Shown in pieces: positions 11,379 through 31,776 of a stretch of DNA of 51,973 nt. Positions within the stretch are counted from its first letter, which is position 1. Every line of letters begins with the position of its first letter. The position numbers and the translations under genes are program-made. The notes beneath the pieces are model-generated. The model was not told the DNA's origin and searched no databases. It saw nothing but the letters and a program-made list of their open reading frames with translations. The stretch lies in the IMG/VR virus record IMGVR_UViG_3300024256_000012, positions 1 through 51,973 of that record; one strand, 5' to 3'. The stretch is from a virus.

Positions 11379-11509
11379 CTTAAATAAAAAATTTCGCTCC
11401 AGTAAAAACATTTTGTGCATCAAAAGCTCCAAACTCAAGGTCTCACGGATACGAGTTGTTCAACAATATCGAGTCCACACGATTTTTTTTTTTTATCTGC
11501 ATAAGTCTA
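11379..11509 (-). promoter_or_regulatory. Conserved three-box intergenic element, copy A
   Basis: Three blocks shared with 31647-31776: a 20-base block at 11379-11398, AGCTCCAAACTC at 11425-11436, and CTGCATAAGTCTA at 11497-11509 (+ strand text). Box starts are 46 and 72 bases apart here, 46 and 71 in copy B. Here the arm that pairs perfectly in copy B is degraded to a T12 run (11483-11494), which may also be a sequencing-sensitive spot. Located in the leader of the terminase operon. Confidence 0.7.
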
Positions 11510-11739
11510 ATATTTTCAACCTCAGAGTGTAAGTAATCGCTGAGTGTAAGTCCTATTTTTCAAAAGAGTCGTTTCCATAAAACTCCTTTTTATCAGAATC
11601 CCAGCACCGAATATCGCTGAAACAGATGCTTATTTCACTGTTTTAAAAAGGCCAATATATTTTTATCACTCCCAATCGCTTACATCTATCAAATAAGCCG
11701 AAAACCATAAAAGCTCTAAAATTCGATTTTACGGCAAAA

Positions 11740-11771
11740 AAATAAAGCCCCATACTAGATGAGGCTTTATA
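11740..11771 (-). terminator. Intrinsic terminator after groES
   Basis: On the minus strand ATAAAGCC and GGCTTTAT form an 8-bp stem around a GC-containing loop, followed immediately by a run of seven T. It is 60-95 bases past the groES stop and closes the accessory operon before the terminase leader. Confidence 0.85.
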
Positions 11772-11834
11772 GATCGAACAGCCTAGAAACAGCTGCTATG
11801 GCTTTTATTTAGTGACTAGCGAGCTTGCCCTGCT

Positions 11835-12122
11835 CTATTCTCCACCCTCCTCTCCTTCGACTAACAAAACCTCATTCTCAGCCATCACCAAATAGGGTGT
11901 ACCTTGTACCACGCTACCACTATACATTCCATACCAGATAACATCGCCAATTACCAGCTCTTCATCTTGGCATTTCCTACCCAGAGCAACCACTGTTCCT
12001 CTTTTTGGCTTTCGACCTTCTTGGGCTGAGTCTGGTATAATGATACCACTCGCTGTTTTCGCTTCGGCTACATCAGGCAACACCAATACGTTATCACCCA
12101 ACGGCCTATACTTCATTGTCAT
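11835..12122 (-). CDS. groES: GroES-like co-chaperonin
   Basis: A 95-residue Cpn10 homologue that would cap the host GroEL ring. MKYRPLGDNVLV at the N-terminus, a mobile-loop region (EAKTASGIIIPDSAQE, about residues 20-35) including the hydrophobic III that contacts GroEL, KRGTVVALG, and a C-terminal LVMAENEVLLVEG match the family over full length. Some phages encode such proteins (T4 gp31 is a functional analogue) to fold an oversized or difficult capsid protein. It overlaps the upstream gene by 17 bases and ends the accessory operon. Translation may start at MTMKY or two codons later. Confidence 0.9.
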   Translation of the reverse strand: MTMKYRPLGDNVLVLPDVAEAKTASGIIIPDSAQEGRKPKRGTVVALGRKCQDEELVIGDVIWYGMYSGSVVQGTPYLVMAENEVLLVEGEEGGE

Positions 12123-12732
12123 CTTTCTTATCCTTTCTGTTGTAGTTTAGTTTTCTCAAAAATGTATATATCCATTCTGTATCCATCGGCTCCAGAATCA
12201 TAGCGTGAGCGATAGCCCACCGCCTGAGTCGGTCTTGGCTATAAAACATCATCATCTCTTCATCCTGAACACAGCACAGAATATCGAGCTTATTTGATTC
12301 CATCATCCACCCTGCGACCTTCGTCAGATTATGTTTAGGAAGAGATGTTTGCTGAAGCATCTCGTATGTCTTCATGTCACAGCATACGCCAACCAGCGTA
12401 TTATCAGACAACTCCAGTATCTCGTGCAGAGCTTCTAGGCTTAGAGCTTCAGTGGCTGTATCTTCCCCAAGCCACACACCATCGAACATTTCTTTGATAG
12501 TTTCTGAGGCATAAGGTGCTTTCTTAGCTCCTAGAACAGTGTTTAAAGGCTGTTCGATGTCTACACCCATACCCGTACCTGCCTCACCAAACACGTCACC
12601 ACCTTCACCGCTTTTAATAGCTCTATCAACTTTTTTGGTTAGCCCCATCCAAGCTGCAGCCGATGCCCAACCGCAGAATAGGATTATCAAGCAAGCCCAC
12701 AGTACGTTTTGAAGCGTAAAAATATCACTCAT
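12106..12732 (-). CDS. Membrane-anchored protein of unknown function (208 aa)
   Basis: A 208-residue protein with one N-terminal hydrophobic segment (about residues 9-29, WACLIILFCGWASAAAWMG), then a soluble Glu/Asp/Met-rich domain with a CC pair (110-111) and a charged tail. Topology suggests a single-pass anchor with the body in the cytoplasm or periplasm. It overlaps its neighbours on both sides (ATGA-type at 12725-12732). I do not recognise the family. Confidence 0.6.
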   Translation of the reverse strand: MSDIFTLQNVLWACLIILFCGWASAAAWMGLTKKVDRAIKSGEGGDVFGEAGTGMGVDIEQPLNTVLGAKKAPYASETIKEMFDGVWLGEDTATEALSLEALHEILELSDNTLVGVCCDMKTYEMLQQTSLPKHNLTKVAGWMMESNKLDILCCVQDEEMMMFYSQDRLRRWAIAHAMILEPMDTEWIYTFLRKLNYNRKDKKDDNEV

Positions 12733-13039
12733 GTTTCTTCTCTCCTTCTCCGAATTTGATTTCAGTTTGGTTATCTTTATCAGTATTCACCAGCACCCCA
12801 GATAGGATAGCCGACACCCAGAATGTAAGCTGACAGCCGTTACATACAACCCCAATCATCGGCACAGCTGACATTTCCTTCTCGCTGGCTGGTTTATATT
12901 CCACCACTTGATAGATTCGATCTTGAATTGAAAAGGCTTCACAGCCGCACATCGCACAGCAAGGCTTTTTGCCGATCTTCTCCCAGCGACTCCCCAGATG
13001 CTGTTTAATCAATTCAGAAGTCGCTTTATTCAGCAGCAT
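12725..13039 (-). CDS. Small zinc-finger-like protein (104 aa)
   Basis: A 104-residue protein with CCAMCGC (about residues 27-33) and VCNGC (about 69-73), spaced as a four-cysteine zinc-binding ribbon inserted in a short beta domain. It is part of a chain of overlapping small accessory genes. Probably binds zinc and possibly nucleic acid; no enzymatic signature is visible. Confidence 0.6.
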   Translation of the reverse strand: MLLNKATSELIKQHLGSRWEKIGKKPCCAMCGCEAFSIQDRIYQVVEYKPASEKEMSAVPMIGVVCNGCQLTFWVSAILSGVLVNTDKDNQTEIKFGEGEKKHE

Positions 13040-13535
13040 CTTTCCTCTCCTTCGCTTTCAGTTTTTGCTCCGCAACCAAGGCATCTTTCCTCTTCTTCTC
13101 TTTATTATGAGCGTGGCGATTCTTGATGAACTTTGGTATGATAATTTTCGGGTCATCTAGGTCACCAAGCCGAACAAAGTGGAGTATGCGATCAAGCAAC
13201 TCAAGATAGTTGTCAGCTTTCTCTAGAGCTTGAGCGTGCATCAATTCAGCAAACGGCAAATCCTTCTTCACCTGAGGCAGTCCTTCACGTTCACGTTTCT
13301 TGCTCCAAGTAGGAAAGCGAAACTCATATTCAGACTTTTGTAGCTTCTCGCATTCTGCATCGAGTCGCTTCAGAACTTTAGTCAATCGCACCACTTTCTC
13401 TTTTAAAGTTTCCTGTGGCTTGAGTTTCGCTAGAGTTGATTTGAAATCCTTCTTTGGTGCGCTCATTATCGGCTTAGAGCGTTTGGCTGCTCGTTTGAGC
13501 AGATCATCCTTTTGTCGTTTAGTCCAGTCAGTCAT
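13026..13535 (-). CDS. Lysine-rich helical protein (169 aa)
   Basis: A 169-residue, highly charged protein: basic ends (KRQKDDLLKRAAKRSK at the start, a Lys/Arg/Glu-rich tail HNKEKKRKDALVAEQKLK) and a central coiled-coil-like segment (about residues 36-65). Composition suggests nucleic-acid binding or assembly through coiled coils. Overlaps its neighbours by 8 and 14 bases. Function unknown. Confidence 0.55.
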   Translation of the reverse strand: MTDWTKRQKDDLLKRAAKRSKPIMSAPKKDFKSTLAKLKPQETLKEKVVRLTKVLKRLDAECEKLQKSEYEFRFPTWSKKREREGLPQVKKDLPFAELMHAQALEKADNYLELLDRILHFVRLGDLDDPKIIIPKFIKNRHAHNKEKKRKDALVAEQKLKAKERKDAAE

Positions 13536-13872
13536 TTCTTGTCACCTTTTGATTAAACATTATGCCATCCGCAGGAATGAAATTGGAACCATCCTTGAGG
13601 ATTAACTTTTTCACTTTACAGTTCGAGCTAACAAAGACTCGAATTTGCTGTCCAGAGTATTCAGCAGACACCACCCGACTTCCCAACGCACATCGCTGCT
13701 GGTGAGAATTGAACAGGTGGCACTCGCTACAGATATGAACAGAAGCATCTTTGACCTTAGTATCATTCACGTGCCTTCTCCCATGCGTCATTTCGTAGAA
13801 GTCATACAAGTCTTGAAGCTTGAATGAATCTTCTTCCATAGGTATCCATTGGTGCCTACAATTAACATTCAT
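13528..13872 (-). CDS. Cys/His-rich small protein, possible zinc finger (114 aa)
   Basis: Starts at MNVNCRHQW (13872), whose ATG overlaps the TGA of the membrane gene upstream. The longer frame to 14094 would lie almost wholly over that gene and is rejected. NCRHQW near the start and HICSECHLF followed by HQQRC could supply metal ligands, as in HNH or zinc-finger folds. A basic, beta-like C-terminus follows. No complete HNH catalytic pattern can be shown. Confidence 0.55.
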   Translation of the reverse strand: MNVNCRHQWIPMEEDSFKLQDLYDFYEMTHGRRHVNDTKVKDASVHICSECHLFNSHQQRCALGSRVVSAEYSGQQIRVFVSSNCKVKKLILKDGSNFIPADGIMFNQKVTRND

Positions 13873-14102
13873 AGCCCAACTATCACGTGAAGTGTATTCG
13901 GCTCGAAAGTTATGGCGCCATAATACATCCAGCCCCATACAGCCCAGAATAAAATAAACAATCCAATCAGGACCACTCCAAGATACTCTTCCAGCATCCC
14001 CCATCCAGTAACAGAAGCGATAAACAAACTGACCAAGCCCACAGCCACAAGAGCTGTTGAGCAAATCATAATCATAGTTAACAACGTTGACCAAAATAAC
14101 AT
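13869..14102 (-). CDS. Small membrane protein, two to three helices (77 aa)
   Basis: A 77-residue hydrophobic protein with segments at about residues 5-30 and 38-60 and a polar end. AAGGAATTTCAAA precedes the ATG. First gene after an intrinsic terminator (14125-14187), so it starts or restarts a transcription unit. Could be a holin-like or envelope-interacting protein; location in the early/accessory block argues against a main lysis role. Confidence 0.6.
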   Translation of the reverse strand: MLFWSTLLTMIMICSTALVAVGLVSLFIASVTGWGMLEEYLGVVLIGLFILFWAVWGWMYYGAITFEPNTLHVIVGL

Positions 14103-14124
14103 TTTGAAATTCCTTATAATAATA

Positions 14125-14187
14125 AATTAATAAAACAATCCACTGGGGTCATCATCGGCTGCGTAATGGACAGAGGACAACCCCAGT
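14125..14187 (-). terminator. Intrinsic terminator between accessory genes
   Basis: Arms at 14187-14176 and 14153-14142 pair over 12 bp (two G-U wobbles) around a 22-base loop, with TTGTTTTATT downstream on the minus strand. It lies in the 113-base gap between the 90-residue gene (14216-14488) and the membrane gene starting at 14102. Confidence 0.7.
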
Positions 14188-14215
14188 TGTGCAGGACTTT
14201 TTGTTTATTTACATA

Positions 14216-14488
14216 CTAACCCTCCTTTGCTATATTCAATAAATGCTTTTCAAATTCTCGTTTCGCTGTCCTGATTGTAACACTCAGATTGAACAGCGCA
14301 TCGTGTTGCGCCTGATCGAAGGGTAGCAAGACAGATTTGGCTTTATGTTTCGGCCAAACTTCGAGCCCATCCGACTTAGGGAAAGCGAGTTTGTAATGAT
14401 ACTTCGTTTCTCCTCTGAATATTACTTTGGCTACAGCATAGGTGACAGGATCAACATAGATGCAAATTGTACCTTTGATCCACTTCAT
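14216..14488 (-). CDS. Hypothetical protein (90 aa)
   Basis: A 90-residue protein beginning MKWIKGTICIYVD, with a beta-like first half and a helical second half (FDQAQHDALFNL onwards). Its ATG overlaps the stop of the 58-residue gene upstream (ATGA) and it is the last gene before a terminator. No recognised family. Confidence 0.55.
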   Translation of the reverse strand: MKWIKGTICIYVDPVTYAVAKVIFRGETKYHYKLAFPKSDGLEVWPKHKAKSVLLPFDQAQHDALFNLSVTIRTAKREFEKHLLNIAKEG

Positions 14489-14661
14489 TTTCTTCCACCA
14501 ATAACGATTTTGTCATAAGCAGTTTTGGTAATTTCTGTTACAGTCCATCCATCCTTTTCGAGCTGCGCTTTGACTCTCTCAGCGTCAGCAGGAAGCGCAC
14601 AGGCCTTGTCTGTCTTCAATTTGCCTGCAGCTTCGATCTTCCAATACACTTTCATGTCCAT
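14485..14661 (-). CDS. Small hypothetical protein (58 aa)
   Basis: A 58-codon frame starting MDMKVYWKIEAAG and ending VIGGRK. It lies one base after the upstream stop and overlaps the next start (ATGA), with GGAGAAG upstream. The sequence looks like a genuine beta-alpha-beta mini-domain (a helix at ADAERVKAQLEKDG). Coupled translation and tight packing support it as real. Confidence 0.65.
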   Translation of the reverse strand: MDMKVYWKIEAAGKLKTDKACALPADAERVKAQLEKDGWTVTEITKTAYDKIVIGGRK

Positions 14662-14662
14662 G

Positions 14663-14902
14663 TCATTCTTCTCCTTCTATTAATTGTACCCAACTAGATA
14701 TTGGATAGACTTTTGCCCCAATCTCTTTGGCGTGTTTGTTAGCTTTCGATTTATTTGTATATACAGGAAGCACACCACGCATGCCATCTCGATAGGCTAA
14801 GGAGACTGTGGGCAAAATCGGCTCACCTGACTCCTCTTCATAATCGAGAGCTGGCAAGACCATCTCGTCAATTAAAACTCCGACAATGTATAGCTTTTTC
14901 AT
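14663..14902 (-). CDS. Hypothetical protein (79 aa)
   Basis: Start taken at MKKLYIVGVL (14902), whose ATG overlaps the upstream TGA; a longer frame to 14989 would overlap that gene by 91 bases. The 79 residues alternate beta strands and one helix (TNKSKANKHAKEIG). The family is not recognised. It belongs to a chain of small genes joined by stop-start overlaps. Confidence 0.6.
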   Translation of the reverse strand: MKKLYIVGVLIDEMVLPALDYEEESGEPILPTVSLAYRDGMRGVLPVYTNKSKANKHAKEIGAKVYPISSWVQLIEGEE

Positions 14903-15180
14903 CTGTGATCTGGGTGCTTGAAAGTGAACTGTTGCCCAGTTGAAGATTTCTTTGGCAACTGACTCCCACGATGCGGGTGAAAAGTACAATGTCTGACTTC
15001 AAGTCCTAGAATCCCAGCAGCACGTTCCTTTTGAGATTCCCAGCTATTGCCTCCAACTCCGATATCATTGGCCCAGAATGGCAGACCATGCCAACGGCTG
15101 ATGAAGAATATCCTTTGGTTGGGCACTCCTTCTCCGTGGGCCTTTTTGACTGTGTAATAAATGTCTACTTTATTTTTCAT
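14899..15180 (-). CDS. Hypothetical protein (93 aa)
   Basis: Start taken at MKNKVDIYYTV (15180), with AGAGGTGG just upstream and an ATGA overlap with the preceding 48-residue gene. Contains RWHGLPFWANDIG and a Cys/His-containing tail (VRHCTFHPHRG). Not recognised; small size and context suggest an early accessory function. Confidence 0.6.
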   Translation of the reverse strand: MKNKVDIYYTVKKAHGEGVPNQRIFFISRWHGLPFWANDIGVGGNSWESQKERAAGILGLEVRHCTFHPHRGSQLPKKSSTGQQFTFKHPDHR

Positions 15181-15323
15181 TTTGCCACCTCTGGGAAGAA
15201 GTATAATACAAACCAAAGGGCAAACATGGCGAGAAAACCACCACCACCATAAATTATCAATATGGCAAAAACTGGATCATTGAAACTCTCCAGACCTAGC
15301 CAATCCAATATTTTCTTTTTCAT
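15177..15323 (-). CDS. Small membrane protein (48 aa)
   Basis: A 48-residue frame, MKKKILDWLGLES..., with a hydrophobic core (about residues 18-43) containing a run of four Gly and aromatic residues. Start and stop overlap those of its neighbours by four bases each, a strong sign of translational coupling. Probably a single-pass inner-membrane peptide. Confidence 0.65.
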   Translation of the reverse strand: MKKKILDWLGLESFNDPVFAILIIYGGGGFLAMFALWFVLYFFPEVAK

Positions 15324-15661
15324 ACCAAGTGTTCCTTTCCTGTGGCATTTTTCCTAGCCTTATCATAAAATCTGAGCATCTTCAAATCTCTAGGTGATCT
15401 CAGATAACTTCGGTTCATACAATATTCGAGATTGTGGTTGCCTCCAGTTTGCCACTTTCTCCCAATGGTGTTTATTTCGTAGCTCGAATCATACTCTTCA
15501 TAGAAAGCTTCAACAGCCCAACGGACAGCCTGATCAATACTGGCGTGTCCTTCTATCTCGTAATGCTCCCAGCCGATCTTAGCCATCATCATAACATCGT
15601 TCTCACCACGGCCAACATAGTTGATCGAGATGCTAGCAATCTTCGGCTTTTTCTTAGTCAT
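15320..15661 (-). CDS. Hypothetical protein (113 aa)
   Basis: Start taken at MTKKKPKIASIS (15661), overlapping the stop of the 176-residue gene by eight bases. Predicted beta strands, then a helix (SIDQAVRWAVEAFYEEY), then a basic, aromatic C-terminus. A small alpha/beta protein with no recognised motif. Confidence 0.6.
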   Translation of the reverse strand: MTKKKPKIASISINYVGRGENDVMMMAKIGWEHYEIEGHASIDQAVRWAVEAFYEEYDSSYEINTIGRKWQTGGNHNLEYCMNRSYLRSPRDLKMLRFYDKARKNATGKEHLV

Positions 15662-16184
15662 GATATGGACTCCTTGTATATTCTTCAAACGACTCGACAG
15701 CATTAGGTGCGACCTGAACTATGGTCTTGTACATCCTCCACGGCAAGTCCGAAAGCTTCACCATTGCTTCGAGCTTCTTTGCTAGAGTGTCGAAAGCTTC
15801 TTTGCCTCCCATCCCCATCCTAGCGAAAGTGAATGCTGGAAGGAATGTCTTGGAATCTACATGATTCATATCTTCGTTGAATACAGCCAAATCTAGCTGT
15901 TCAGGCAATTGCTGGTAGTCGGTATTGCCCCATTGCCTTTCAAACGCTTTAACAACCTGATTTAGCTCGTTAATCCAATATAAATCGTGCCAGTCATCCC
16001 ACGGCCCATCAACTATGTTGGGGTGCGATGCGTGAGCGACTCTAGAAGGATGATTAATAAACCTTCGCATGACAGGATTCATCCCACTCCACATATACCA
16101 AGTTCCTGATGGGCTAGGCTTAAACAAATGGAGTCCATAAGAATGGGCCACCTTGTTAAACTCTCTCAAGGTCATCTCAGCCAT
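15654..16184 (-). CDS. Hypothetical Trp/Met-rich protein (176 aa)
   Basis: A 176-residue protein, unusually rich in Trp, Met and His in its first half (TWYMWSGMNP, WDDWHDLYW), with a predicted helical second half. No signal peptide or known catalytic motif. Overlaps both neighbours by eight bases. Its function is unknown. Confidence 0.55.
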   Translation of the reverse strand: MAEMTLREFNKVAHSYGLHLFKPSPSGTWYMWSGMNPVMRRFINHPSRVAHASHPNIVDGPWDDWHDLYWINELNQVVKAFERQWGNTDYQQLPEQLDLAVFNEDMNHVDSKTFLPAFTFARMGMGGKEAFDTLAKKLEAMVKLSDLPWRMYKTIVQVAPNAVESFEEYTRSPYHD

Positions 16185-16419
16185 ATCTCACCACCCTGCG
16201 AAAAAGAGGCAGACGACAAACTGGTTCATTAACAATTCGCTTTCGGCTGTTCTTCTCGTTGCCGTGTCTGATACCCTTCCTTGCTCCAGTAGCTCGAAGC
16301 GTTAACAACGAGACTTCCTTGCGCTGGACTTCGTTATAGTGTTCAGGTACATCATCTCCAATAACATAATTCTGCCTGACGTGTCTGCGCCAAACTTCCC
16401 TCTGCTCTGGGGTGCTCAT
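16177..16419 (-). CDS. Basic hypothetical protein (80 aa)
   Basis: Start chosen at MSTPEQREVW (16419) because GGAGG sits seven bases upstream; a GTG at 16431 overlaps that ribosome site. The C-terminal half is strongly basic (RKGIRHGNEKNSRKR). Could bind nucleic acid or ribosomes; not recognised. Confidence 0.55.
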   Translation of the reverse strand: MSTPEQREVWRRHVRQNYVIGDDVPEHYNEVQRKEVSLLTLRATGARKGIRHGNEKNSRKRIVNEPVCRLPLFRRVVRYG

Positions 16420-16541
16420 CTTTTCCTCCACCCTCTCTTAACAACTCGCTTTTGGTACTTGCTTTGCTCTGGTTTCGTGCCATCTCTTTTGGTGGCTGCC
16501 TTCTTCTCTTTTGCTGTTTGTCGCTTTGCTCGTTTTGGCAT
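16416..16541 (-). CDS. Very basic 41-residue peptide
   Basis: Frame MPKRAKRQTAKEKK... with about 40% Lys+Arg, ending GWRKR. GAGGAGAG precedes the ATG, which shares its A with the upstream TAA (TAATG). Its TGA overlaps the next ATG. The linkage supports a real gene. Likely binds nucleic acid. Confidence 0.55.
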   Translation of the reverse strand: MPKRAKRQTAKEKKAATKRDGTKPEQSKYQKRVVKRGWRKR

Positions 16542-16741
16542 TAGTCTCTCCTCAGAAATGACTTGATGATTTTATTCGTTCTATTTGTTTGAGTAGTCGG
16601 GTCACACTTCCCAATATCCCCAGACCAGCAGATCAAGCCGTGCTGGTTTTCGATTGACCACCTGCCTCTGATATCGAGCTCAAGTGTATAAGGTTCTCTG
16701 GACAATATCTCGCTGAAAAGTATCTCGATGAAATAAGTCAT
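16541..16741 (-). CDS. Hypothetical protein (66 aa)
   Basis: Start taken at MTYFIEILFSE (16741), one base after the stop of the J-domain gene; the longer frame to 16906 overlaps that gene. A short helix, beta strands (YTLELDIRGRWSIENQ) and a basic tail are visible. No family recognised. Confidence 0.5.
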   Translation of the reverse strand: MTYFIEILFSEILSREPYTLELDIRGRWSIENQHGLICWSGDIGKCDPTTQTNRTNKIIKSFLRRD

Positions 16742-16742
16742 G

Positions 16743-17270: not shown

Positions 17271-17280
17271 AGTTACTGTC

Positions 17281-17871: not shown

Positions 17872-17875
17872 CTTG

Positions 17876-17897
17876 TACTCCTCTGTTAAGGTTCTAG
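17876..17897 (-). promoter_or_regulatory. Start-associated leader box 1
   Basis: CTAGAACCTTA, then seven bases, then GGAGTA, ending five bases before the ATG at 17871. One of five copies in 17.8-20.4 kb. Confidence 0.65.
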
Positions 17898-17956
17898 CTC
17901 GTTTGCCAAATGCTGGCTTGTCTAATGGATATTGTGTTCTGTTCATAGCTACTGTC

Positions 17957-18247
17957 TCAGGCCAACTCCAAAAAAGAATAGAGTGGATGAGGGTGAGTTA
18001 TTCGATTGGTACAATAGACATCGCACTCACCTTCGATTGAGATAGCTCGAAGGACTTTGGCACAGGTCGCATCGCTAGGATTATCCATCAGCATCTCGTC
18101 AGAATCATGGGCATAAATTTCCAGCTCATTCTCTAGGACTCCAGCATGCTCTTTCATAAACTCGAAAGCTGCCTTGACTGAATTAAAATCTCGATCATTG
18201 ACTGTACCGATTTTGTTAGCCGATCTTAAAGTTGTTTTCATTTTCAT
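17957..18247 (-). CDS. Hypothetical protein (96 aa)
   Basis: A 96-residue protein MKMKTTLRSANK..., alpha/beta, with a helix (FNSVKAAFEFMKEHAG), an acidic centre and two Cys near residues 75-79. Preceded by AAGGAGTATG and a leader box. Not recognised. Confidence 0.55.
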   Translation of the reverse strand: MKMKTTLRSANKIGTVNDRDFNSVKAAFEFMKEHAGVLENELEIYAHDSDEMLMDNPSDATCAKVLRAISIEGECDVYCTNRITHPHPLYSFLELA

Positions 18248-19090: not shown

Positions 19091-19092
19091 AA

Positions 19093-19647: not shown

Positions 19648-19654
19648 TTTTTCG

Positions 19655-21946: not shown

Positions 21947-24900
21947 TTATTCAGCAACCTTTCCCTTCTTCAGTACCTTCAACTTGCTTATATCAATCTT
22001 GTTAAATCCAGGCACCTTCCTTCCCTGAAAGACTATCACCGACCCAACACCCGACTCTTCAAATATGAGCTTCTTGAACTTCCCAAATTTGTATCTATTA
22101 ATTCCAGCGAGTATCTGCCCTGTATCATCCTCCATCTGCATGATAAGAAACTCGTGTAAATCAGGTCGCTTGATCTTGGTCAAATCCTTCTGTGCGGTGA
22201 TACCAGCCTCAAATACATCTCGCAAATTCAGTCGGGTTATCTTCGCCAATATGATTACTTCTTCGGTGCGCTCTGTTACATCTTTGATTAGAGTCCACTT
22301 GCCCTCATATTTGTCGTACCAGTCTTGGAATCCTTCACCAATAGGATACAAGTCAGCCCACGGCAATAGGTCGGTGATAATGTCCATCCCCTTTGGGTTG
22401 CCAATCTCTTTGAACGTATCAATTATGGCTCCAGTAATCCCATCAAACAAGTCGGTCTGATTGATGTCACCCTTCGCTATTAATCCCTCAGGCAACTTAC
22501 CTAGCAAATGCAGGCTCTCTAACCCTCTTTTACCAAGAGCTTTCCTGAAGTCCTTGCTATTGCTCCATGGGCGTGTTGCGACAATTTTATCGGCTGCTTT
22601 CTCGCCAATTCCTTTCACGTTCTGAAAGCCACCATATATGATACCTTCTTTGAGGGTAAAATTCTGTTCGGACTTCTCCAAATCCAACGGCTCGAACTTC
22701 CCACCACGATCAACCCACTCTCGCAATAGCTTCTTGATAATGTCATCATCGTTCTCCTTGCGAATAGTGGAGATGTAAAACTCAGCTGGGTAGTGGGTTT
22801 TGAGATAGGCTGTCCAGTATGATAAAAGCCCATAGGAAACTGAGTGAGATTTATTGAATGCCCAAGAGCCGAATGTACAGACGTTCTCCCAAATGATTTG
22901 AGCTATCTCTTTGGTGACTCCATTCTTCCCAGCACCCTCAATGAACTTGCTTTCGTATGTCCGAAAATATTCAACACCCAAGCTCTTGCTCATAATTTTT
23001 CTCAGAGCAGTAGCATCCTCCCAGTTCATCCCACCTAGCTCTTTTACAATCGTGAGAACTTGCTCTTGATAGACTACAATTCCATAAGTCTCTCCAGCTA
23101 GAGTTTCGAGCATCGGGTGAATATATTGAACCTTCTTTTTTGTCGGTATGTCAAAGCCCATCTCGTGAGCTCTGTAATTGATATAACGAGTCGTGCCACC
23201 ACAGTGTAGTGACCCAGGTCGTGCCAGTGCGCTTATCTCTGCTATGTTAGTAAATTTGTCAGGCTGTACTTGTTTGTTGACCATCCTAACAGCGTCACCT
23301 TCAAATTGGAAAATTCCCCAGAGCTTATTTGTGCGAAAGGTCTCAAATGTTTTCGTATCTTCCAGAGGCAAATTATACAGCCAATCATAATCCTTCTCGA
23401 TCAGCAAAAGGATATTCTCTAGAATGGTAAGTTGCTTCAGTCCAAGCAGGTCAATCTTCAGCAAGCCGACTGCTTCAGAATCCTTCTTGTCCATACTGAT
23501 GATTCGTTCTCCTTTCGTGCCCCTAACAAGCCCACCTAGCTTGTCTATGGGCTGATCTGATACTACGAGCCCAGCGGCATGAATCCCGTGCTGTTTGATC
23601 TGTCCTTCGATCTTGGCTGCTTCCTTGAATAAAGGATATTGTTTCACAATCGCTTTGCTTCTCTCGAACTGGTCAAAGGTATCAGTCAAACAAAAGCTGG
23701 CACGAGCATCAGCTGAACTCCTTTCGACTATCAAATTGACAAGCTCTTGAGCTTCCCTGAATGGTAGGTCGTATGCCCTTCTTGTATCCCACAAAGCTAC
23801 CTTCGGTTTGAAGTATCCAATCGTGCCTAGCTGGCTTGTATACTCCTCCCCATATTTGTCAATCAAATACTCGATAACCATATGACGCTTTTCATCTGGG
23901 AAGTCTAGATCAATATCAGGTGGATCATTTCGAGTGATGTCAATAAATCTCTCGAAAATTAAGCCGTGAGGAATTGGATCAACTTCAGTTATCCTGAGGA
24001 CATAAGCGACTATGGAACCAGCTACACTTCCACGAGCTGGCCCAAGCAACATCCTCTTCTTAGCCCACACGCAAAGGTCTTGGATGACTAGGAAGTAGTC
24101 AATGTAATTTTTCTCGTTGATGAGCTTGACTTCCTTCGCAAGTCGTTTCTCGTACACTGGCCAGTCCTTGAGCTTTTTTAACCCTCTGAACTTTACTCCA
24201 GTGGTGATCTGATACAGGAAAAATTCCTCTTTGTTTTTCCATAGAGCATTCTTCTCCAGTGGGAAAGTTTTCTGCCCTGATATAACTCGCTTATCTGAAC
24301 ACTTGTCGTCAATCTCAAGGGTGTTCTCGAAAGGAGAGTGATCAGGGTAAACAAGGGCAGACCTTTCCTCAGCTTCAGCTCCATCGAAGAGATACAATTC
24401 AGGCATCAGTTTTAATCGGTTGGGGTCATCGAAGTTTGACTTGGTTCCTATGCATACAATCAAGTCCTCTGCTGTATGATCGTGGGGGCTGGGGAAGTGC
24501 GAGTCAGAAGTTGAGACTGGCTTGATATTATATTCATCTGCAAGCTCAAGTATCTGAGTCACCTCCCCAGCAAACTTTTCGATTGGGCTGACTTCTATAT
24601 AAAAGTCATCTTTGAATGCCTTCTTAAAACTCTTCAGATATTTGTCCCTGTATTGAGTTTTGCTAAGGTTATTAATTAAGACTCCAGCACCCATACATCC
24701 CGACAAAACGATCAACCCTTCGTTATGAGCCAGCAGAGTTTTGAAGTCGATTCTTGGCTTGTAATAGAATCCCTCAAAATTGCTAAAGGTTATCAGCTTG
24801 TGTAGGTTCTCTTGCCCAGTCTCATTCTTAGCCATAACTGTTATATGATAACGATGCCTGTCATGCCTATCCATAGCATCATCGACAATATAAAACTCAC

Positions 24901-25102
24901 AGCCGTAAATTATCTTGGTGCCGTTGTTTCGCTTCTTCGCTTCTCGCCAGAATGGAACATGAGCCCAGATATTGCCATGGTCAGTTATAGCTAGCGACTT
25001 GTGCCCAATCTCCTCTAGCCTATCAAGGTATTGAGCTGGCAATCCATACCCATCTAGGAAACTGTACCCAGTATGAGTATGGAGGTGTATGAAATCTAAC
25101 AT
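21947..25102 (-). CDS. dnaE: DNA polymerase III alpha subunit (DnaE type)
   Basis: A 1051-residue replicative polymerase of bacterial family C. It begins with a PHP domain (HLHTHTGYS at residues 6-14; ITDHGN near 39-44), whose metal-binding residues look intact and could give proofreading or pyrophosphatase activity. The palm has the catalytic PDIDLDFPDE (about residues 394-403). KIDLLGLKQLTIL, VYQEQVL and FNKSHSVSYGLLSYW mark the fingers. A C-terminal region ends in an OB-like section. It is slightly shorter than cellular DnaE (about 1160). It overlaps the methyltransferase-like gene by seven bases, at the 3' end of the replication operon. Very secure. Confidence 0.96.
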   Translation of the reverse strand: MLDFIHLHTHTGYSFLDGYGLPAQYLDRLEEIGHKSLAITDHGNIWAHVPFWREAKKRNNGTKIIYGCEFYIVDDAMDRHDRHRYHITVMAKNETGQENLHKLITFSNFEGFYYKPRIDFKTLLAHNEGLIVLSGCMGAGVLINNLSKTQYRDKYLKSFKKAFKDDFYIEVSPIEKFAGEVTQILELADEYNIKPVSTSDSHFPSPHDHTAEDLIVCIGTKSNFDDPNRLKLMPELYLFDGAEAEERSALVYPDHSPFENTLEIDDKCSDKRVISGQKTFPLEKNALWKNKEEFFLYQITTGVKFRGLKKLKDWPVYEKRLAKEVKLINEKNYIDYFLVIQDLCVWAKKRMLLGPARGSVAGSIVAYVLRITEVDPIPHGLIFERFIDITRNDPPDIDLDFPDEKRHMVIEYLIDKYGEEYTSQLGTIGYFKPKVALWDTRRAYDLPFREAQELVNLIVERSSADARASFCLTDTFDQFERSKAIVKQYPLFKEAAKIEGQIKQHGIHAAGLVVSDQPIDKLGGLVRGTKGERIISMDKKDSEAVGLLKIDLLGLKQLTILENILLLIEKDYDWLYNLPLEDTKTFETFRTNKLWGIFQFEGDAVRMVNKQVQPDKFTNIAEISALARPGSLHCGGTTRYINYRAHEMGFDIPTKKKVQYIHPMLETLAGETYGIVVYQEQVLTIVKELGGMNWEDATALRKIMSKSLGVEYFRTYESKFIEGAGKNGVTKEIAQIIWENVCTFGSWAFNKSHSVSYGLLSYWTAYLKTHYPAEFYISTIRKENDDDIIKKLLREWVDRGGKFEPLDLEKSEQNFTLKEGIIYGGFQNVKGIGEKAADKIVATRPWSNSKDFRKALGKRGLESLHLLGKLPEGLIAKGDINQTDLFDGITGAIIDTFKEIGNPKGMDIITDLLPWADLYPIGEGFQDWYDKYEGKWTLIKDVTERTEEVIILAKITRLNLRDVFEAGITAQKDLTKIKRPDLHEFLIMQMEDDTGQILAGINRYKFGKFKKLIFEESGVGSVIVFQGRKVPGFNKIDISKLKVLKKGKVAE

Positions 25103-25647
25103 ATGGGGTTGTTCCTTTTTACCAGCTGAATTAAAACTGCGAGATTGCGCTCAGCGACTCCGATAATGATGCTGATGTTTACCTTTAAGCCCCCAGTGTC
25201 ATGCTTCTTGTAATAATCATTCTCAAGTAGATTCTTAAAAGTGGTTTCAGTAAATGTATGTTTGTGGTCTAAATCTTGGTGCGCCATATTCGATTTGTAG
25301 TATGGAACTGTTATGTTAATAACTCCATCAGATTTTAAAACTCTAGACATATCAGCGATAAGTGGAATCACATTTTGGATATGCTCTAGGAAATGGTGGC
25401 AATTGATAACGTCTACAGAGTTGGCCTTGAAAGGAATAGGATTTGATTCAGCATCCCATGATGGCCAATCTAACACCCTGTTATTTTCTAAGACCTTCAT
25501 CATGCCAGCTCCCAGATTTAAGATAACAGCGTCATCACCGACATCCCACTCAGGCTTATAATAAACAGAATTGATATCACGATCCATCCCGACTTTGAAA
25601 AACTCTCGAAGAGTTTTGGGGAAAGCCCCAAAATATTTCTTTGTCAT
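25096..25647 (-). CDS. SAM-dependent methyltransferase-like protein (183 aa)
   Basis: A 183-residue Rossmann-type protein of the Methyltransf_11 kind: VILNLGAG (about 41-48) as motif I, NSVDVINCHHFLEHIQN as the motif IV region, and SRVLKSDGVINITVPYYK as the post-motif strand. The order is right for a class I methyltransferase, though shortened at the C-terminus. It is coupled to thyX (four-base overlap) and dnaE, so the substrate could be a nucleotide, DNA or a small molecule. No target-recognition domain is seen, so a restriction-type DNA methylase is unlikely. Confidence 0.75.
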   Translation of the reverse strand: MTKKYFGAFPKTLREFFKVGMDRDINSVYYKPEWDVGDDAVILNLGAGMMKVLENNRVLDWPSWDAESNPIPFKANSVDVINCHHFLEHIQNVIPLIADMSRVLKSDGVINITVPYYKSNMAHQDLDHKHTFTETTFKNLLENDYYKKHDTGGLKVNISIIIGVAERNLAVLIQLVKRNNPIC

Positions 25648-26462
25648 TTCTTATCTCCATCGGTGCTAAAGTGTTCAGACTTAAAGACTCGATCACCAGC
25701 CCACTCGAACTCGCATTGCTCTTCTGTCTCCTCAAATCCTTGGAACATACACTTGTGAGTTTTCTCGCAACTGATCTTTATGTACGGCTCCATCCAAGGC
25801 CATAGAATTAAAACTTCACTTGCCATTCGCTGCATTACTTCGACCATCTCCCACTGGAACATCGGGCAAGCTCGATAAGCGAAAGTGTCCAAGAAAACTT
25901 TGATTGGATATTCAGCCACAATATAAGTCTCTATGCCAACAGGAACAGCAAACCTTGCGTCTTGGTATGGGATGCCCAGTTCGCACAGCTTCTCGTATGT
26001 TTTACGAGCTTGAAACACAAGGTTATTAAAAATCTGATGAGCATCCCTATCGTTCCAGATTGTTTTAGGTTCTCGAACATTAAACTTGGCACCCATAAAA
26101 GTGTAGCGAGAAGATTGCTGGTGGAAGGCTGCTTTGCGAGTCCTTACCATCTGGTGAGTAAAAGCCCGACTGACTCCGCTTATCTCGAAGGTGAACACGC
26201 CAGCTTCCAATCCTGTCTGGAGTCCTCCTTTGAATAACTCTTCGCCAACCTCTGGTGGAATGTCTTCATTAATATCTCCACCCACAGTAGCTCCAACCAT
26301 CTTTGATAAAGCTCTTTTGAATCTCTTCTCATCTGGGTAGTCGATAAGCTTGACTTGGATACCATCGGTGCCAGCGTGAACTTCTCCTTTGTTTAAAGGA
26401 CTGATCGCATTCATGCCGTGCTCGTGAGAATTGAACGCAGTTTTCTTATTCTTGTTAAGCAT
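25644..26462 (-). CDS. thyX: Flavin-dependent thymidylate synthase (ThyX), divergent motif
   Basis: A 272-residue enzyme expected to make dTMP from dUMP with methylenetetrahydrofolate, FAD and NADPH. GVSRAFTHQMVRTRKAA is followed by FHQQSSRY: the ThyX signature RHRxxSxxxxSxRY is present as RTR...QQSSRY (about residues 107-120), with Thr for the His and Ala for the first Ser but the key Ser and final RY kept. DARFAVPVGIETYIV and a conserved R-x-C-P block (FAYRACPMFQWEMVEVM) complete the fold. A Cys/Glu-rich C-terminal tail extends past the usual end. It sits among other nucleotide-metabolism genes. Family secure; altered chemistry possible. Confidence 0.88.
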   Translation of the reverse strand: MLNKNKKTAFNSHEHGMNAISPLNKGEVHAGTDGIQVKLIDYPDEKRFKRALSKMVGATVGGDINEDIPPEVGEELFKGGLQTGLEAGVFTFEISGVSRAFTHQMVRTRKAAFHQQSSRYTFMGAKFNVREPKTIWNDRDAHQIFNNLVFQARKTYEKLCELGIPYQDARFAVPVGIETYIVAEYPIKVFLDTFAYRACPMFQWEMVEVMQRMASEVLILWPWMEPYIKISCEKTHKCMFQGFEETEEQCEFEWAGDRVFKSEHFSTDGDKK

Positions 26463-26805
26463 CTTGGCTTTCCTTTTCCATCTTCTCGATATTGAGAATT
26501 GTTAGTATTGAATAGTTTGCTAGGTCGATCAAGTTTTGTTTTACGTTCTCCAAATCCCTTTCTCTGGACTTGGGAGTTTTGCCTAGCATGAAATGATTAA
26601 GCTGGCGCACGTGACCTGATTTGAATAATCCTTTAACACGCAACCACTTCCTTTTGATATCATAATAGCTTCCAACCAGATCATCTTCCAAAAAGGAATT
26701 ACCATACTGGACATTCTTAACTGTAAAGACTCGAAGCATCTGCTGAGTTATCTCTTCAAATCTATTTTGTATTTCAATTTGGCTCATTCTATTCTCCATT
26801 GTCAT
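26455..26805 (-). CDS. DUF1599 / nucleotide-modification-associated protein
   Basis: A 116-residue helical protein (or 110 if started at MSQIEIQNR, 26787, which has GGAG upstream). KNVQYGNSF, then DIKRKWLRVKGLF, and a closing DLANYSILTILN helix match DUF1599, named nucleotide modification associated domain 1 in published comparative work. It overlaps thyX by eight bases and the MazG-like fusion by four. The molecular activity is not established; association with thymidylate or modified-nucleotide metabolism is from family context. Confidence 0.75.
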   Translation of the reverse strand: MTMENRMSQIEIQNRFEEITQQMLRVFTVKNVQYGNSFLEDDLVGSYYDIKRKWLRVKGLFKSGHVRQLNHFMLGKTPKSRERDLENVKQNLIDLANYSILTILNIEKMEKESQDA

Positions 26806-27719
26806 CTTATTTCATCCAGAGTTTTAATTCTGATTACATTCTTGCCCATATCACCTTGGTTGTAATCAGTGTCGATCAGATAACACTTTTTGCCAGCTTT
26901 GCTAATGTCATTAGCATAGTGTAGCATATCTTCAACCATAAACTCGATATTGGGGAACTGGCTTATGGCATCTTGATTTTTCTTCTCGCTGAAGATGATA
27001 GCGTCACGGCCATCCTCCCACAGATCATTTTCCCTCAACCAAAATAAAGTATCTGAAAAAATTCGGCTGTATTCTTTTACTGGCCTTGAGGTCAAATACA
27101 CTATCGAATATCCTGCGCTGTGCATGCTTTTGATAAAACTCCACGCACCTGAGCATAGCTCCATTGTACGCTTCTTGCCAGTCTCTCGATACTCGTGTTT
27201 GAGTTTCCTGATTGCTTTCCTTCCTAAGACTTTTTCATATGCTCTGAAGATGTCGTCTGTAAATGTTATCGGCTCCACCTGAGTCTCTTCGTGAATAAAC
27301 TTCATAAAGGAGTAAGGATAGTCAGCCAGCACCCCATCCAGATCACAAGCAATAATCTTTTCCCTATCTCGAAGCTTGAGAAGTTTTTCCTGAACCCAGC
27401 GTTGTTCCACCACAGCACTTTTATCAGCAAAAGCTTCCATAAACTCATCTGGTGCCCAGCCCCAGACCTGCCCTATGACGAGCCAGTATTTGAATATGTC
27501 AATCCACTCTTCTCGAATATTAGAAATGGTGAGCTGCTCCTTACTAGGCCGATGCGCTTTGTAGTTGATTTCTCGAAGCAACTCACCCAATTCTGCCATC
27601 AATTGTAAAACATATTCCTTAGTATATTTCTGTTTGGAATCTGTGTCATAAATCTCATCTGATATATTTGTCTGGAAGTCGGCTTGCCTATCCCAGATTT
27701 GCTGTAGTCTATCGCTCAT
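26802..27719 (-). CDS. MazG-like/dUTPase domain fused to HAD 5'-nucleotidase
   Basis: A 305-residue bifunctional protein. Residues 1-110 resemble all-alpha NTP pyrophosphatases of the dimeric-dUTPase/MazG superfamily, with helix pairs carrying ELGELLRE (43-50) and REEWIDIFKY (69-78), the usual acidic metal ligands. Residues about 120-305 are a HAD hydrolase: CDLDGVLADY with nucleophile Asp126 and Asp128, a STR-like YLTSRP motif near 219, and a final VEDMLHYANDI block, as in 5'(3')-deoxyribonucleotidases. Together it could convert dUTP to dUMP and trim deoxynucleotide pools. Start and stop overlap with both neighbours by four bases. Domain calls are firm; exact substrates are inferred. Confidence 0.82.
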   Translation of the reverse strand: MSDRLQQIWDRQADFQTNISDEIYDTDSKQKYTKEYVLQLMAELGELLREINYKAHRPSKEQLTISNIREEWIDIFKYWLVIGQVWGWAPDEFMEAFADKSAVVEQRWVQEKLLKLRDREKIIACDLDGVLADYPYSFMKFIHEETQVEPITFTDDIFRAYEKVLGRKAIRKLKHEYRETGKKRTMELCSGAWSFIKSMHSAGYSIVYLTSRPVKEYSRIFSDTLFWLRENDLWEDGRDAIIFSEKKNQDAISQFPNIEFMVEDMLHYANDISKAGKKCYLIDTDYNQGDMGKNVIRIKTLDEIR

Positions 27720-28651
27720 AGTTTTAATCCTTTCAATCTGCTCATTTCTTGCCAGCTCTGATCGAGTTTGTAACCCTTCTCCCAGTTAGCATATCGACCT
27801 ACCATATACATGCCGCTGTCTCTTAATAACTGTTTGGTGTTATCTAGATCAAGAAGAGTTTTATCAACTGGAAAAACTTTTCCTGGTGTTAGTTTTATTC
27901 CTTGGCTACCAAAGGCAGCAGGATTCATATATTCTCTCGTCATTAGACTACCAGCCAAAGTTGTCCTGTAATGCCCGACTTCTTTGTCATAGTTATAGAT
28001 AATGATCATATTGTTTTTACCAAGAGGAGAATCCAGCAAGCTCTGTCTTATGTAGATCGGCTTTGACCTGAAAGCTTCATATGGCATATTCCTTATCACC
28101 TCAGGAACTATAATTGGCCCACCATAGTCGGCTCGTGTTATAAGTTTTAAGAAGCTGGGCAGAGGCAGTGTGTTAATAATAGTTTTGGCATATATAGTCC
28201 CTTTGTCTGTATCAACTCGCTTGGCGTTGCTGCCCATATTCTGAATATAGATTTTGGTCACTCTTCTATCATAGTCGAAATGCCCAGCTGAAGCTAGCAT
28301 ATGATCAATGTTAAGTTTATAGCCAAATGCCATCTTCTCGTCAATCGAAACTCCAGCGACTTGCTCCCCATAAACCTTCTCTGAATACTGCTCTGTAAAA
28401 TCTTCATCCTGCCGTGGGCCATCGATCATCCACGCCACACTGATAGTCTCGTCAGTCACCAAAGGGTGGAGATGTCGGTGGACATAGAAGGCAGCCGTTG
28501 AGCTATACATTTTGCGGGTGGTACTAAACGAATTTGCCTCCACGTGCCCTATCCTATCGGCTGGAATTTTCATCACGTGTTTTAAGTAGGAGTGAGCCAA
28601 TAATCCCGATGGCCCAGCCCCAATAATTAAGTAATCACAAGTCAATTGCAT
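27716..28651 (-). CDS. FAD-dependent oxidoreductase-like protein (311 aa)
   Basis: A 311-residue protein with a classic dinucleotide-binding start (DYLIIGAGPSGLLA, GxGxxG at 11-16), a mid segment with IINTLPLPSF, and a C-terminal DSGMYMVGRYANWEKGY block that resembles the second FAD contact of the UDP-galactopyranose mutase and amine-oxidase superfamily. It is shorter than most of these. It lies between primase-helicase and the MazG-like fusion and overlaps the latter. Redox modification of a nucleotide, sugar or DNA base is possible. There is no direct evidence for a substrate. Confidence 0.7.
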   Translation of the reverse strand: MQLTCDYLIIGAGPSGLLAHSYLKHVMKIPADRIGHVEANSFSTTRKMYSSTAAFYVHRHLHPLVTDETISVAWMIDGPRQDEDFTEQYSEKVYGEQVAGVSIDEKMAFGYKLNIDHMLASAGHFDYDRRVTKIYIQNMGSNAKRVDTDKGTIYAKTIINTLPLPSFLKLITRADYGGPIIVPEVIRNMPYEAFRSKPIYIRQSLLDSPLGKNNMIIIYNYDKEVGHYRTTLAGSLMTREYMNPAAFGSQGIKLTPGKVFPVDKTLLDLDNTKQLLRDSGMYMVGRYANWEKGYKLDQSWQEMSRLKGLKL

Positions 28652-28671
28652 TTCCTTTTTCCTTTTTCTTT

Positions 28672-31602
28672 TTAGTCAAACATTTCTTGTTCAGTTTCGG
28701 GGTCAACTTGGAAAGCCGAATCATCCACGACAATCTGGCCATTTTTTCTCATATTGAGATACGTTATGAATGCCTCAGTTTTAACATAGAAGGAAGTACC
28801 AACTGTCTTCAAGGCATTATTGTTTCTTAAAACTCGCAGCACATTCTTAACAGCAGACCTTTCCCAGCCTGTTATGTCCACGAGCGAAGATAGATTCAAA
28901 CGATCATCCTCAAGGAGAAGAGGCACGAAGTCATTCTTGATAACCGCATCCACCGCAGATCGGTCTTTCAGTTTTGTTTTACTTAGCTCAACCTCAGACC
29001 ACTCTCCATATCTCATAGAGCTTTTGTTGTAAATCTTTTCCAGCCAGTTATAGAAGAAGTCAACGTGGCCAGTTTTAACAAGGAGGGTTTTGCCGTGGGT
29101 GTTGGTGCTGAAAAACATACCAGCTACAGCAGAAGCACCTCTCATTAGTTTTAATCTTTGATCAGAAGGTTCAACAATTGGTATGCCGTGATAATACTTA
29201 TCACCCATCTGCCTAGCATATTGTAAAACTTTCTTAATTGCTCCAGCCGTAAATTTCACCTCATCAGTTTTACGAGACCAGACCCACATAACAAGATCGT
29301 GACATAAGGCCTGAGTATATTTGAGCACCCTTTCCTCTTTTACTTTCACCCTGTTATAGACTTCTTTGTTCACCTCTTCGCTATGGGCTGTCAGGACAAA
29401 ATCGAATCGCCTGATGTCCTCTAGATTGCCGATCAAATCCCTGACCGCAATACAGCCATAAGGATATTGCATCATGTTCCTACTCGTGTGGCCAATCTTG
29501 CGTGGGTTACCAATCCAAACCTTTCGAGTTTGCGCCATAGTTTTCTCAGTCCTAATCTTAGTCAACTCAGCTATCCCTGATGACCTTACTCCAGAGAACA
29601 AAGCTATGTCTTCAACGCTCATTCCTGATATCTCGTCAATGATTAAAGCTCTGCGGTTATTAAGTGGGATTTTGCCCCAGTTGATATGCCATCGCTTCGC
29701 TGTCTGGCTTAGTCCTCCGATGAGCCCAGCAATGCTAGAGCTTTCACCAGTTACAAATTCTGCAACCCCATAGTGTTTAATCATCGCTTTGGCTAGCTCA
29801 GTTTTGCCACAGCCAGAATCTCCAATGATTAAACTCTCCATCCAACCACGCTCAACCTTCCCTTGAAACTTAACATTCAACGGACTGTGGAGAGTTATAT
29901 CAAATGTCATAGCGATGTCCATCCGATCATAGATGCCACTTATATGTTCGATGTCCTCATGCCTTTCGAGATAAGCCTTCATCATTTCTTCAGCACTACC
30001 ATCGCACTGGAAAATTTCCAAACGCTTTTCCATCTCCTCATTCATATCGAATTGGTCGATTGAATCAACAGTTTCTATGGCATCGAAAAAGAGCTGGGTG
30101 CTCTGCTGTGTTTTCGGGTTAGGAAGGGCAAGCCCTCTTAAAACATAGACTTGGTTGGCCTGTACTCCTAGCCCAGCGTGATACGCTACATTCTGAACAT
30201 ATTCATAATTCGCATCGGTGGTGAAGTCTATCTCTGGGATGAGTCTTAACTCTTCTATGTTTATATATGTTTTTGTATCTATCCTAAATCTGTCGCACCT
30301 ATTCGGGATGCCCAGCTGCTTCTTGATATTCCTAAACAAAGCATCATCTCGAATGTCGATAAGATTTAACAAACTGCCTCTGTCAACCTCCTCCTTCAAA
30401 AATATATCTTTATTGTTATCAGTCACCTGATAGAAGGGACAAAATGGGCATAGGTTCTCGCCACCCTTGGCATCGCATTTACAATTAACTTTATTTGGAA
30501 TTTCATAGGGTGGATAATCCTTGCCTGATACTAGAGCTTTGACTTCAATATTCATCAACGCATTCTTCGCATGGCTGGCGTCAGCAAGAGTGACCTTTTT
30601 ATATTCCTTGTTTCTCTCCTTCTTCCCATACTCCATTGTATCATAATATTCTTTGGCTGCTGTTAAAACTTCTCTGAAGTCCTCTATTGTTTTACCATAT
30701 GTTATTATAAAGTCTGTGAAGTCATCTCCTCCTTTCGGCTCTTCAATAAACTTCCCCAGCTCTGCTATGAATACAATCTCAGCTATCCCTACCAATTGCT
30801 TGGCGACTCGAATTGCTCCAGCTTCTCCAGCCTTATCTACATCATACAATATATAGACTTTTTTGTCCTTGAAATATTTATGAGGCCAGCCCTTGTTAAA
30901 ACTTCCAGCCCCACTCGTAACAGTCACGGCCTTCAGCCCCATCTGGTCGGCCAACATCGCATCCATCTCTCCTTCGACAATCAATATTTTCTTCGACTCT
31001 AGATTGTGAAGAGGAAACAAGCGCATGCGCCCATATTGGTATTCTGAATCATCGGTGTAATTGATTAATTTGAACTTGGGATTCTTCATCAGGAAAGCAT
31101 ATTGGCGTACATTCCTGCACTTGCCTTCGCTGTCGAATATTGGTATGGTGATTCTGTTCCTAAAATATCCAAGCTTGTGCTTCTTGATAGTCGCTAGAGT
31201 GATGCCACGCATCTCCTCCAGCTTGGATATTATCATCTTGTTATCGAGCAAAGCCTTGTGCCAACTTTCCCATATAGAATTGTCAACTGTTCCCTCAAGA
31301 GAATAGTCATCAGCATTAAGCTTTATATCAAGATGTTTACAGAGCCATTGAATGCGTTCTCGTTTCGTTTCCAGCCCCAGCTTTTTCTCAAGGAATGTAT
31401 AGACGTTTCCAGACCCGCATCCCGCATAACAATTGTATTGCCCTGTTTGAGAATTAAAACCAAAACTGGGGTCAGTATCTTCGTGTAAAGGACAATGTCC
31501 AGAAAACTGTCCATCTCCCAACGGCTTAATCTTTTCTACAAAATCTTCATAGAATCTCAGGTAGTCAATCTTCAATTCTATCTGTTCAATAATACTAGGC
31601 AT
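28672..31602 (-). CDS. Primase fused to an MCM-like AAA+ replicative helicase
   Basis: A 976-residue replication protein. The N-terminus is DnaG-type primase: a CHC2-like zinc finger (CPLHEDTDPSF, CYAGCGSGN, about residues 38-65) and a Toprim domain (ILIVEGEMDA near 208 and YDVDKAG near 249). A Cys-rich knuckle (NCKCDAKGG, CPFC, about 375-395) resembles the MCM N-terminal zinc site. The AAA+ motor has Walker A GDSGCGKTEL (about 592-601), Walker B ALIIDEIS (about 651-658) and a sensor-1-like IGNPRK (about 697), in the order and spacing of MCM rather than DnaB. A winged-helix (SAVKNVLRVLRNN) ends the protein. It leads the replication operon, directly after the three-box element. Only a weak ribosome site is visible. 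Confidence 0.85.
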   Translation of the reverse strand: MPSIIEQIELKIDYLRFYEDFVEKIKPLGDGQFSGHCPLHEDTDPSFGFNSQTGQYNCYAGCGSGNVYTFLEKKLGLETKRERIQWLCKHLDIKLNADDYSLEGTVDNSIWESWHKALLDNKMIISKLEEMRGITLATIKKHKLGYFRNRITIPIFDSEGKCRNVRQYAFLMKNPKFKLINYTDDSEYQYGRMRLFPLHNLESKKILIVEGEMDAMLADQMGLKAVTVTSGAGSFNKGWPHKYFKDKKVYILYDVDKAGEAGAIRVAKQLVGIAEIVFIAELGKFIEEPKGGDDFTDFIITYGKTIEDFREVLTAAKEYYDTMEYGKKERNKEYKKVTLADASHAKNALMNIEVKALVSGKDYPPYEIPNKVNCKCDAKGGENLCPFCPFYQVTDNNKDIFLKEEVDRGSLLNLIDIRDDALFRNIKKQLGIPNRCDRFRIDTKTYINIEELRLIPEIDFTTDANYEYVQNVAYHAGLGVQANQVYVLRGLALPNPKTQQSTQLFFDAIETVDSIDQFDMNEEMEKRLEIFQCDGSAEEMMKAYLERHEDIEHISGIYDRMDIAMTFDITLHSPLNVKFQGKVERGWMESLIIGDSGCGKTELAKAMIKHYGVAEFVTGESSSIAGLIGGLSQTAKRWHINWGKIPLNNRRALIIDEISGMSVEDIALFSGVRSSGIAELTKIRTEKTMAQTRKVWIGNPRKIGHTSRNMMQYPYGCIAVRDLIGNLEDIRRFDFVLTAHSEEVNKEVYNRVKVKEERVLKYTQALCHDLVMWVWSRKTDEVKFTAGAIKKVLQYARQMGDKYYHGIPIVEPSDQRLKLMRGASAVAGMFFSTNTHGKTLLVKTGHVDFFYNWLEKIYNKSSMRYGEWSEVELSKTKLKDRSAVDAVIKNDFVPLLLEDDRLNLSSLVDITGWERSAVKNVLRVLRNNNALKTVGTSFYVKTEAFITYLNMRKNGQIVVDDSAFQVDPETEQEMFD

Positions 31603-31646
31603 ATAACAACTCTATTTCAATTTGAATAATAATTACAAATAAAACT

Positions 31647-31776
31647 CTTAAATAAAAAATTTCGCTATGCCACAACTGCACTTTCTCTCGTGAGCTCCAA
31701 ACTCGAAAACTACGAATGCACGAAGCTTTCTCTATACTACCCTGAGCGAAATTTTTTATTTCGCTGCATAAGTCTA
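31647..31776 (-). promoter_or_regulatory. Conserved three-box intergenic element, copy B
   Basis: Shares a 20-base block (31647-31666), AGCTCCAAACTC (31693-31704) and CTGCATAAGTCTA (31764-31776) with copy A. Here a perfect 17-base inverted repeat (31650-31666 with 31745-31761) encloses the middle box. The far arm can alternatively fold on itself (AGCGAAAT/ATTTCGCT, 31745-31765). Two mutually exclusive hairpins and a U-rich 3' arm suggest an RNA switch or attenuator in the leader; a replication origin or protein-binding site is the alternative. Confidence 0.7.

Follow-up and report, generated by a model that had tools for sequence, protein, structure and literature searches.

Two noncoding gaps at the heads of operons

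The stretch of DNA analyzed here (the window) is an IMG/VR virus record of 51,973 bases, which, given its 161-base terminal repeat (1-161 and 51813-51973, 99% identity), probably represents a complete circular genome. The genes are all on the minus strand, so that the element described below has to be read, functionally, as the reverse complement. It is present twice, each time in a long gap between genes: copy 1 within 638 noncoding bases that separate the ORFs at 10711-11196 and 11835-12122; copy 2 within 426 noncoding bases between the primase-helicase gene (28672-31602) and the gene at 32029-32979. In the sense of the genes, both gaps open with a terminator-like hairpin that ends the upstream operon (11742-11770 for copy 1 and 31976-32008 for copy 2, both on the minus strand), contain one copy of the element, and close with the first gene of the next operon. 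The placement proposed in the initial annotation, namely, after a terminator and before the first gene of an operon, is borne out: copy 2 is followed by the primase-helicase gene (minus strand), and copy 1 by a 161-aa ORF (10711-11196, minus strand), which occupies the position of a small terminase subunit and has no family match, and then by the gene for the terminase large subunit (8791-10515, minus strand), recognized by tblastn to annotated terminases.

The ORF at 11835-12122 (minus strand), the last in the replication operon, encodes a GroES-like co-chaperonin (PHROG match, E 2e-16); a polymerase of the DNA polymerase III alpha type is encoded at 21947-25102 (minus strand), and a ThyX-type thymidylate synthase at 25644-26462. 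The element is identical, in both copies, in contigs from a second sample. Over 17.4 kb, the sole difference between a second-sample contig and the window is a 12-base in-frame deletion (39703-39714), which falls within a gene with a PhageMin_Tail domain.

Three boxes and a long-range stem

The two copies share three boxes of 20, 12, and 13 nt, in the same order and orientation. Box 1 (CTTAAATAAAAAATTTCGCT) is found exactly at 11379 and 31647, box 2 (AGCTCCAAACTC) at 11425 and 31693, and box 3 (CTGCATAAGTCTA) at 11497 and 31764, with starts 46 and 72 bases apart in copy 1 and 46 and 71 bases apart in copy 2; the initial annotation had placed all of them correctly and was right, too, that the intervening sequence has diverged, the spacers being essentially unrelated. 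In gene sense, the layout becomes box 3 (TAGACTTATGCAG; 11497-11509 and 31764-31776 in copies 1 and 2, respectively), 60 or 59 bases, box 2 (GAGTTTGGAGCT; 11425-11436 and 31693-31704), 26 bases, box 1 (AGCGAAATTTTTTATTTAAG; 11379-11398 and 31647-31666), and the gene. The exact 12-mer of box 2 is found in only these two places in the record, and box 3 has only two exact occurrences. When up to 3 mismatches are allowed, box 1 occurs 3 times in the window against an expectation of 0.00, and the third match (31745-31764, minus strand) represents its inverted partner.

Read in gene sense, the element has an A-rich arm, adjoining box 3, that pairs with the U-rich box 1 located about 100 nt farther downstream. 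In copy 2, the 5' arm (AAATAAAAAATTTCGCT; 31745-31761, minus strand) is a perfect 17-bp complement of box 1, of which bases 31650-31666 are paired, with an outer span of 112 nt. In copy 1, the 5' arm (AGATAAAAAA; 11489-11498, minus strand) is an A-run that forms with box 1 (paired at 11382-11391) a 10-bp A/U stem, including one G-U pair, with an outer span of 117 nt. At spans of 100-130, the window holds a single stem of at least 12 bp, that of copy 2, and the longest stem in local shuffles was 11 bp. The 5' arm of copy 2 makes up, in addition, one side of a local hairpin, GCGAAAT-AAAAA-ATTTCGC (31746-31764). The folding energy is unusual for copy 2 (z of -3.4) and ordinary for copy 1 (+0.15), and the stem of copy 1 disappears once 60 nt of downstream sequence join the fold; flanking sequence alters the balance between alternative folds, and in copy 1 it does so completely. 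Pairing between box 2 and box 1 was considered as well and is not preferred in folding.

Equivalent stems in related phages

The initial annotation held that its reading would fail if relatives had no copies at homologous positions; such copies do exist. In a relative that we denote R (UViG_3300024256_000018), the primase-helicase, terminase, and portal are 64%, 57%, and 51% identical, respectively, to those of the window phage. Comparison of the two leaders of R with each other uncovers an equivalent pair, one upstream of the primase and the other upstream of the terminase operon, with the arms GAAATAAAGAAAA/TTTTCTTTATTTC and TAGAAATAAAGAA/TTCTTTATTTCTA, respectively, 13 bp each, at positions orthologous to those in the window; a scan of the whole of R for perfect stems of at least 10 bp with spans of 100-130 on the gene strand returned exactly those two leaders. 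A third lineage, L33 (UViG_3300032738_000324, terminase 38% identical), contains the arms ATAAATAAAAAA/TTTTTTATTTAT, again with a span of 117, in a 421-base gap upstream of the terminase, and this is the sole stem of at least 11 bp at such a span in 15 kb. The folding energy is unusual for the primase and terminase copies of R (z of -5.1 and -2.7, respectively) and not unusual for L33 (-1.3). The make-up of A-tract, stem, and U-tract is terminator-like, most clearly so in L33 and in the R primase copy.

Across the five stems, the core AAAUAAA/UUUAUUU is almost invariant and, outside the core, differences compensate. Between copy 2 and the R primase copy, for example, both sides differ at +1, +4, +5, +7, and +9, with the pairing kept. 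Two-sided changes affect 8 of the 19 pairs, compared to at most 5 with slid partners, a count of 8 being reached by 5 of 500 shuffles, and 78.9% of the cells are paired, compared to 49-57%; these values were obtained with the arms aligned manually at the core and a dummy linker between them, from five sequences and three lineages, which is few. A MAFFT alignment moved the 3' arms by one column. A stem of conserved span, with two-sided changes at homologous positions in three phage lineages, upholds that part of the earlier interpretation that envisaged a structured RNA leader or a multi-site regulatory element.

The copies within one phage are more alike than the orthologues, both in the window, through the boxes, and in R, where the two copies have in common AAGAGATATTG, GAAATAAAGAA, and TTTTCTTTATTTCT. 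Boxes 1-3 are not conserved beyond this phage species, and R lacks them. Judging from these comparisons, what is kept across the lineages is the paired arms around the core AAAUAAA/UUUAUUU together with an initiation-like region, not the boxes. In the primase copies, the motif AGGGTAGTAT follows the 5' arm at a near-equal distance (31720-31740 in the window and about 15339-15348 in R (L012)), and it is absent from the terminase copies of both phages.

No equivalent stem was found in the stretches examined of L030 and L031, which belong to a more distant group (terminase 43%), or of the phages Wollypog, BSTP12, MW202657, and vir525, so that the distribution of the element appears narrow or patchy. 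Pattern scans of IMG/VR recovered this phage again, along with R and a contig that is near-identical, and, beyond these, only a coding stretch in two contigs, which we take as chance; DNA searches of annotated phages gave only chance-level matches, and the genome collection contained neither relatives nor the exact box pair.

Candidate promoters in the leaders

When the five leaders were scanned with sigma-70 weights, starts being predicted solely by consensus matching, the best site fell directly upstream of the 5' arm in both the R primase leader (TTGAAA-16-TACACT) and the L33 leader (TTAACA-17-TATGAT, with a TG before it). In both window copies, the corresponding place is taken by the TAGACT of box 3 (11504-11509 and 31771-31776). 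Copy 1 also has a weak -35-like CTTACA (11528-11533), spaced 18 from TAGACT, and copy 2 has no recognizable -35; for copy 2 and the R terminase copy, the -10 assignment is weak, and in L33, the predicted start falls within the 5' arm. Box 3, accordingly placed with the best sites of the relatives, looks like a promoter -10 element with the initial transcribed region, and transcription would probably start near the first base of the 5' arm. A promoter for a phage-type RNA polymerase was rejected, there being no such polymerase among the large proteins of this phage.

An ATG is present at the start of each 5' arm; leader peptides and ribosome sites are not conserved among the leaders. In copy 1, an 18-codon ORF (METTLLKNRTYTQRLLTL; 11522-11578, minus strand), preceded by a ribosome site (AAGGAGTTTTATG) of the type that this phage uses, ends just upstream of box 3. 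It is a possible leader peptide, which would require a start farther upstream than the proposed one.

A candidate leader RNA and competing explanations

On balance, we consider it somewhat probable that each copy is a promoter with a structured 5' leader RNA, and that the two co-regulate two transcription units. In this scenario, transcription on the minus strand would begin immediately after the -10-like portion of box 3, the leader RNA would start at or near the A-rich 5' arm and, after another 100 nt or so, the U-rich 3' arm (box 1) would pair back, closing a domain of 110-117 nt before the first gene, in competition with alternative folds such as the local hairpin of copy 2. Because both main transcription units would be headed by one leader type, they could be controlled together, and the greater likeness of copies within a phage than between orthologues suggests a phage factor common to both operons. 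Given that the U-rich arm lies just before the first gene, the likeliest mode of action would be on transcription past the leader, rather than on RNA stability or translation, via conditional termination or antitermination: the U-rich strand would serve as the switch between terminator-like and antiterminator folds, to which either RNA polymerase or a phage factor recognizing the invariant boxes would respond. Among the observations that count against a leader RNA are the short, weak stem of copy 1, with its ordinary folding energy and its sensitivity to downstream sequence, the weak -10 assignments, the predicted start inside the 5' arm of L33, and the sequence invariance of the core, which is what DNA sites would show.

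That invariance is, accordingly, the starting point for the alternative of a DNA operator pair, in which a phage repressor or activator would bind the two arms as inverted sites, the first covering the start and the second lying about 100 bp downstream, so that both promoters would be co-regulated, perhaps through DNA looping of the kind that GalR brings about at the gal operon. The 5' arm of copy 2 is itself palindromic (GCGAAAT-N5-ATTTCGC), and in copy 1, box 1 is retained even though only an A-run is left of its partner, as might be expected of such sites. The R arms, however, are not palindromes and yet are mutually complementary over 13-18 nt, GGGT/ACCC included, and the outer spans of 112 and 117 differ between the copies by about half a helical turn, so that we regard an operator pair as a real if minor possibility. 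The likeness to gal consists in a pair of sites in the region of the start site, inverted relative to each other and separated by about 100 bp; the difference is that each gal-type site is a palindrome to which a dimer binds, and here a palindrome is seen only in the 5' arm of copy 2, whereas the sites of R keep just the mutual complementarity. Protection or processing of the mRNA, by a 5'-terminal stem blocking 5'-end-dependent decay or by an RNase III site, would fit a start at the base of the stem and a helix of 13-18 bp, but a stability stem needs no sequence-invariant boxes 1-3 and the helix of copy 1 is short for RNase III; this we judge improbable.

Still less can be said for a small trans-acting RNA made from each copy and ending at the U-rich box 1: the promoter-like start does lie 110-117 nt from a U-rich end, but the copies stand directly before operons, in the relatives too, which indicates action in cis, and the interior is unconserved between copies of one genome, making this explanation highly improbable. 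The same low standing is given to a replication origin or another non-transcriptional DNA element. The origin, which the initial annotation had entertained, draws on the A/T-richness of the regions, on their being the largest noncoding gaps, and on the location of one copy beside the primase gene; against it stand two equivalent copies 20 kb apart, each after a terminator and before an operon, and a cumulative GC skew that, admittedly a weak test, does not turn at either of them. The conservation is not accounted for by coding, given that the proteins of the 117-aa ORF across copy 2 and the 114-aa ORF across the R primase copy are dissimilar (best blastp E 0.74) and that the matching frame is interrupted by stops in copy 1 and in the R terminase copy. 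A mobile element was rejected because the elements occupy orthologous places and have diverged interiors.

Relationship to known leader RNAs and significance

Consistent with the earlier statement that no matching family was known, Rfam gave no family at the gathering score, the sub-threshold matches being chance-level only. Functionally, the nearest analogue of the leader RNA that we propose would be the put system of phage HK022. The put RNA binds to RNA polymerase, needing no protein factor, and thereby suppresses terminators that lie downstream. HK022 has two such leader RNAs, putL and putR, of about 70 nt and with two stem-loops each, downstream of two early promoters (PMC9378689). The likeness lies in two similar leaders per phage genome, one per operon and near the promoter, as is the case also in R, and the difference in the architecture, a single long A-rich/U-rich stem closing a domain of 110-117 nt here, in place of two adjacent stem-loops. 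Since the agreement is in number and placement but not in architecture, we do not classify the element as put, and antitermination in these phages is only conjectural.

Phage lambda, with nutL and nutR, likewise has two near-identical sites in two operon leaders, each a boxA followed by a boxB hairpin; nut specificity varies among related phages, whereas the copies within one phage agree. Number, placement in operon leaders, and similarity within a phage are all matched here, but no boxA/boxB arrangement was recognized in the leaders by eye (Rfam being blank as well), and no N-like protein was identified in this phage. Attenuators with alternative hairpins share with the present leaders a U-rich strand, competing partners, and a position before the first gene; here, however, no leader peptide of the kind used by such attenuators, translated from a short ORF with its stop or codons overlapping the hairpin, appears to be conserved, there is no known ligand, and one leader type precedes two different operons. 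It is conceivable, though we hold it to be quite unlikely, that these leaders represent a new class of RNA for phage antitermination or conditional termination, structurally unrelated to put and nut, by which this group of uncultured phages switches on its replication and packaging operons via the long-range A-rich/U-rich stem.

The element is best called an undescribed structured leader found in a small set of uncultured phages. As a phage operon leader, it is of an ordinary kind; what is unusual about it is the matched pair with a conserved long-range fold. As far as can be judged from the comparison of genomes, the gene sets for DNA copying and DNA packaging probably have in common, through this element, a previously undescribed means of control by RNA. 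Being specific and short, it is suited to reporter testing. Few phage leader RNAs are known that come in matched pairs before separate operons, put and nut of the lambdoid phages serving as the models. If a group of uncultured tailed phages has an unrelated design, this would suggest that paired leaders recur as a means of coordinating phage gene expression.
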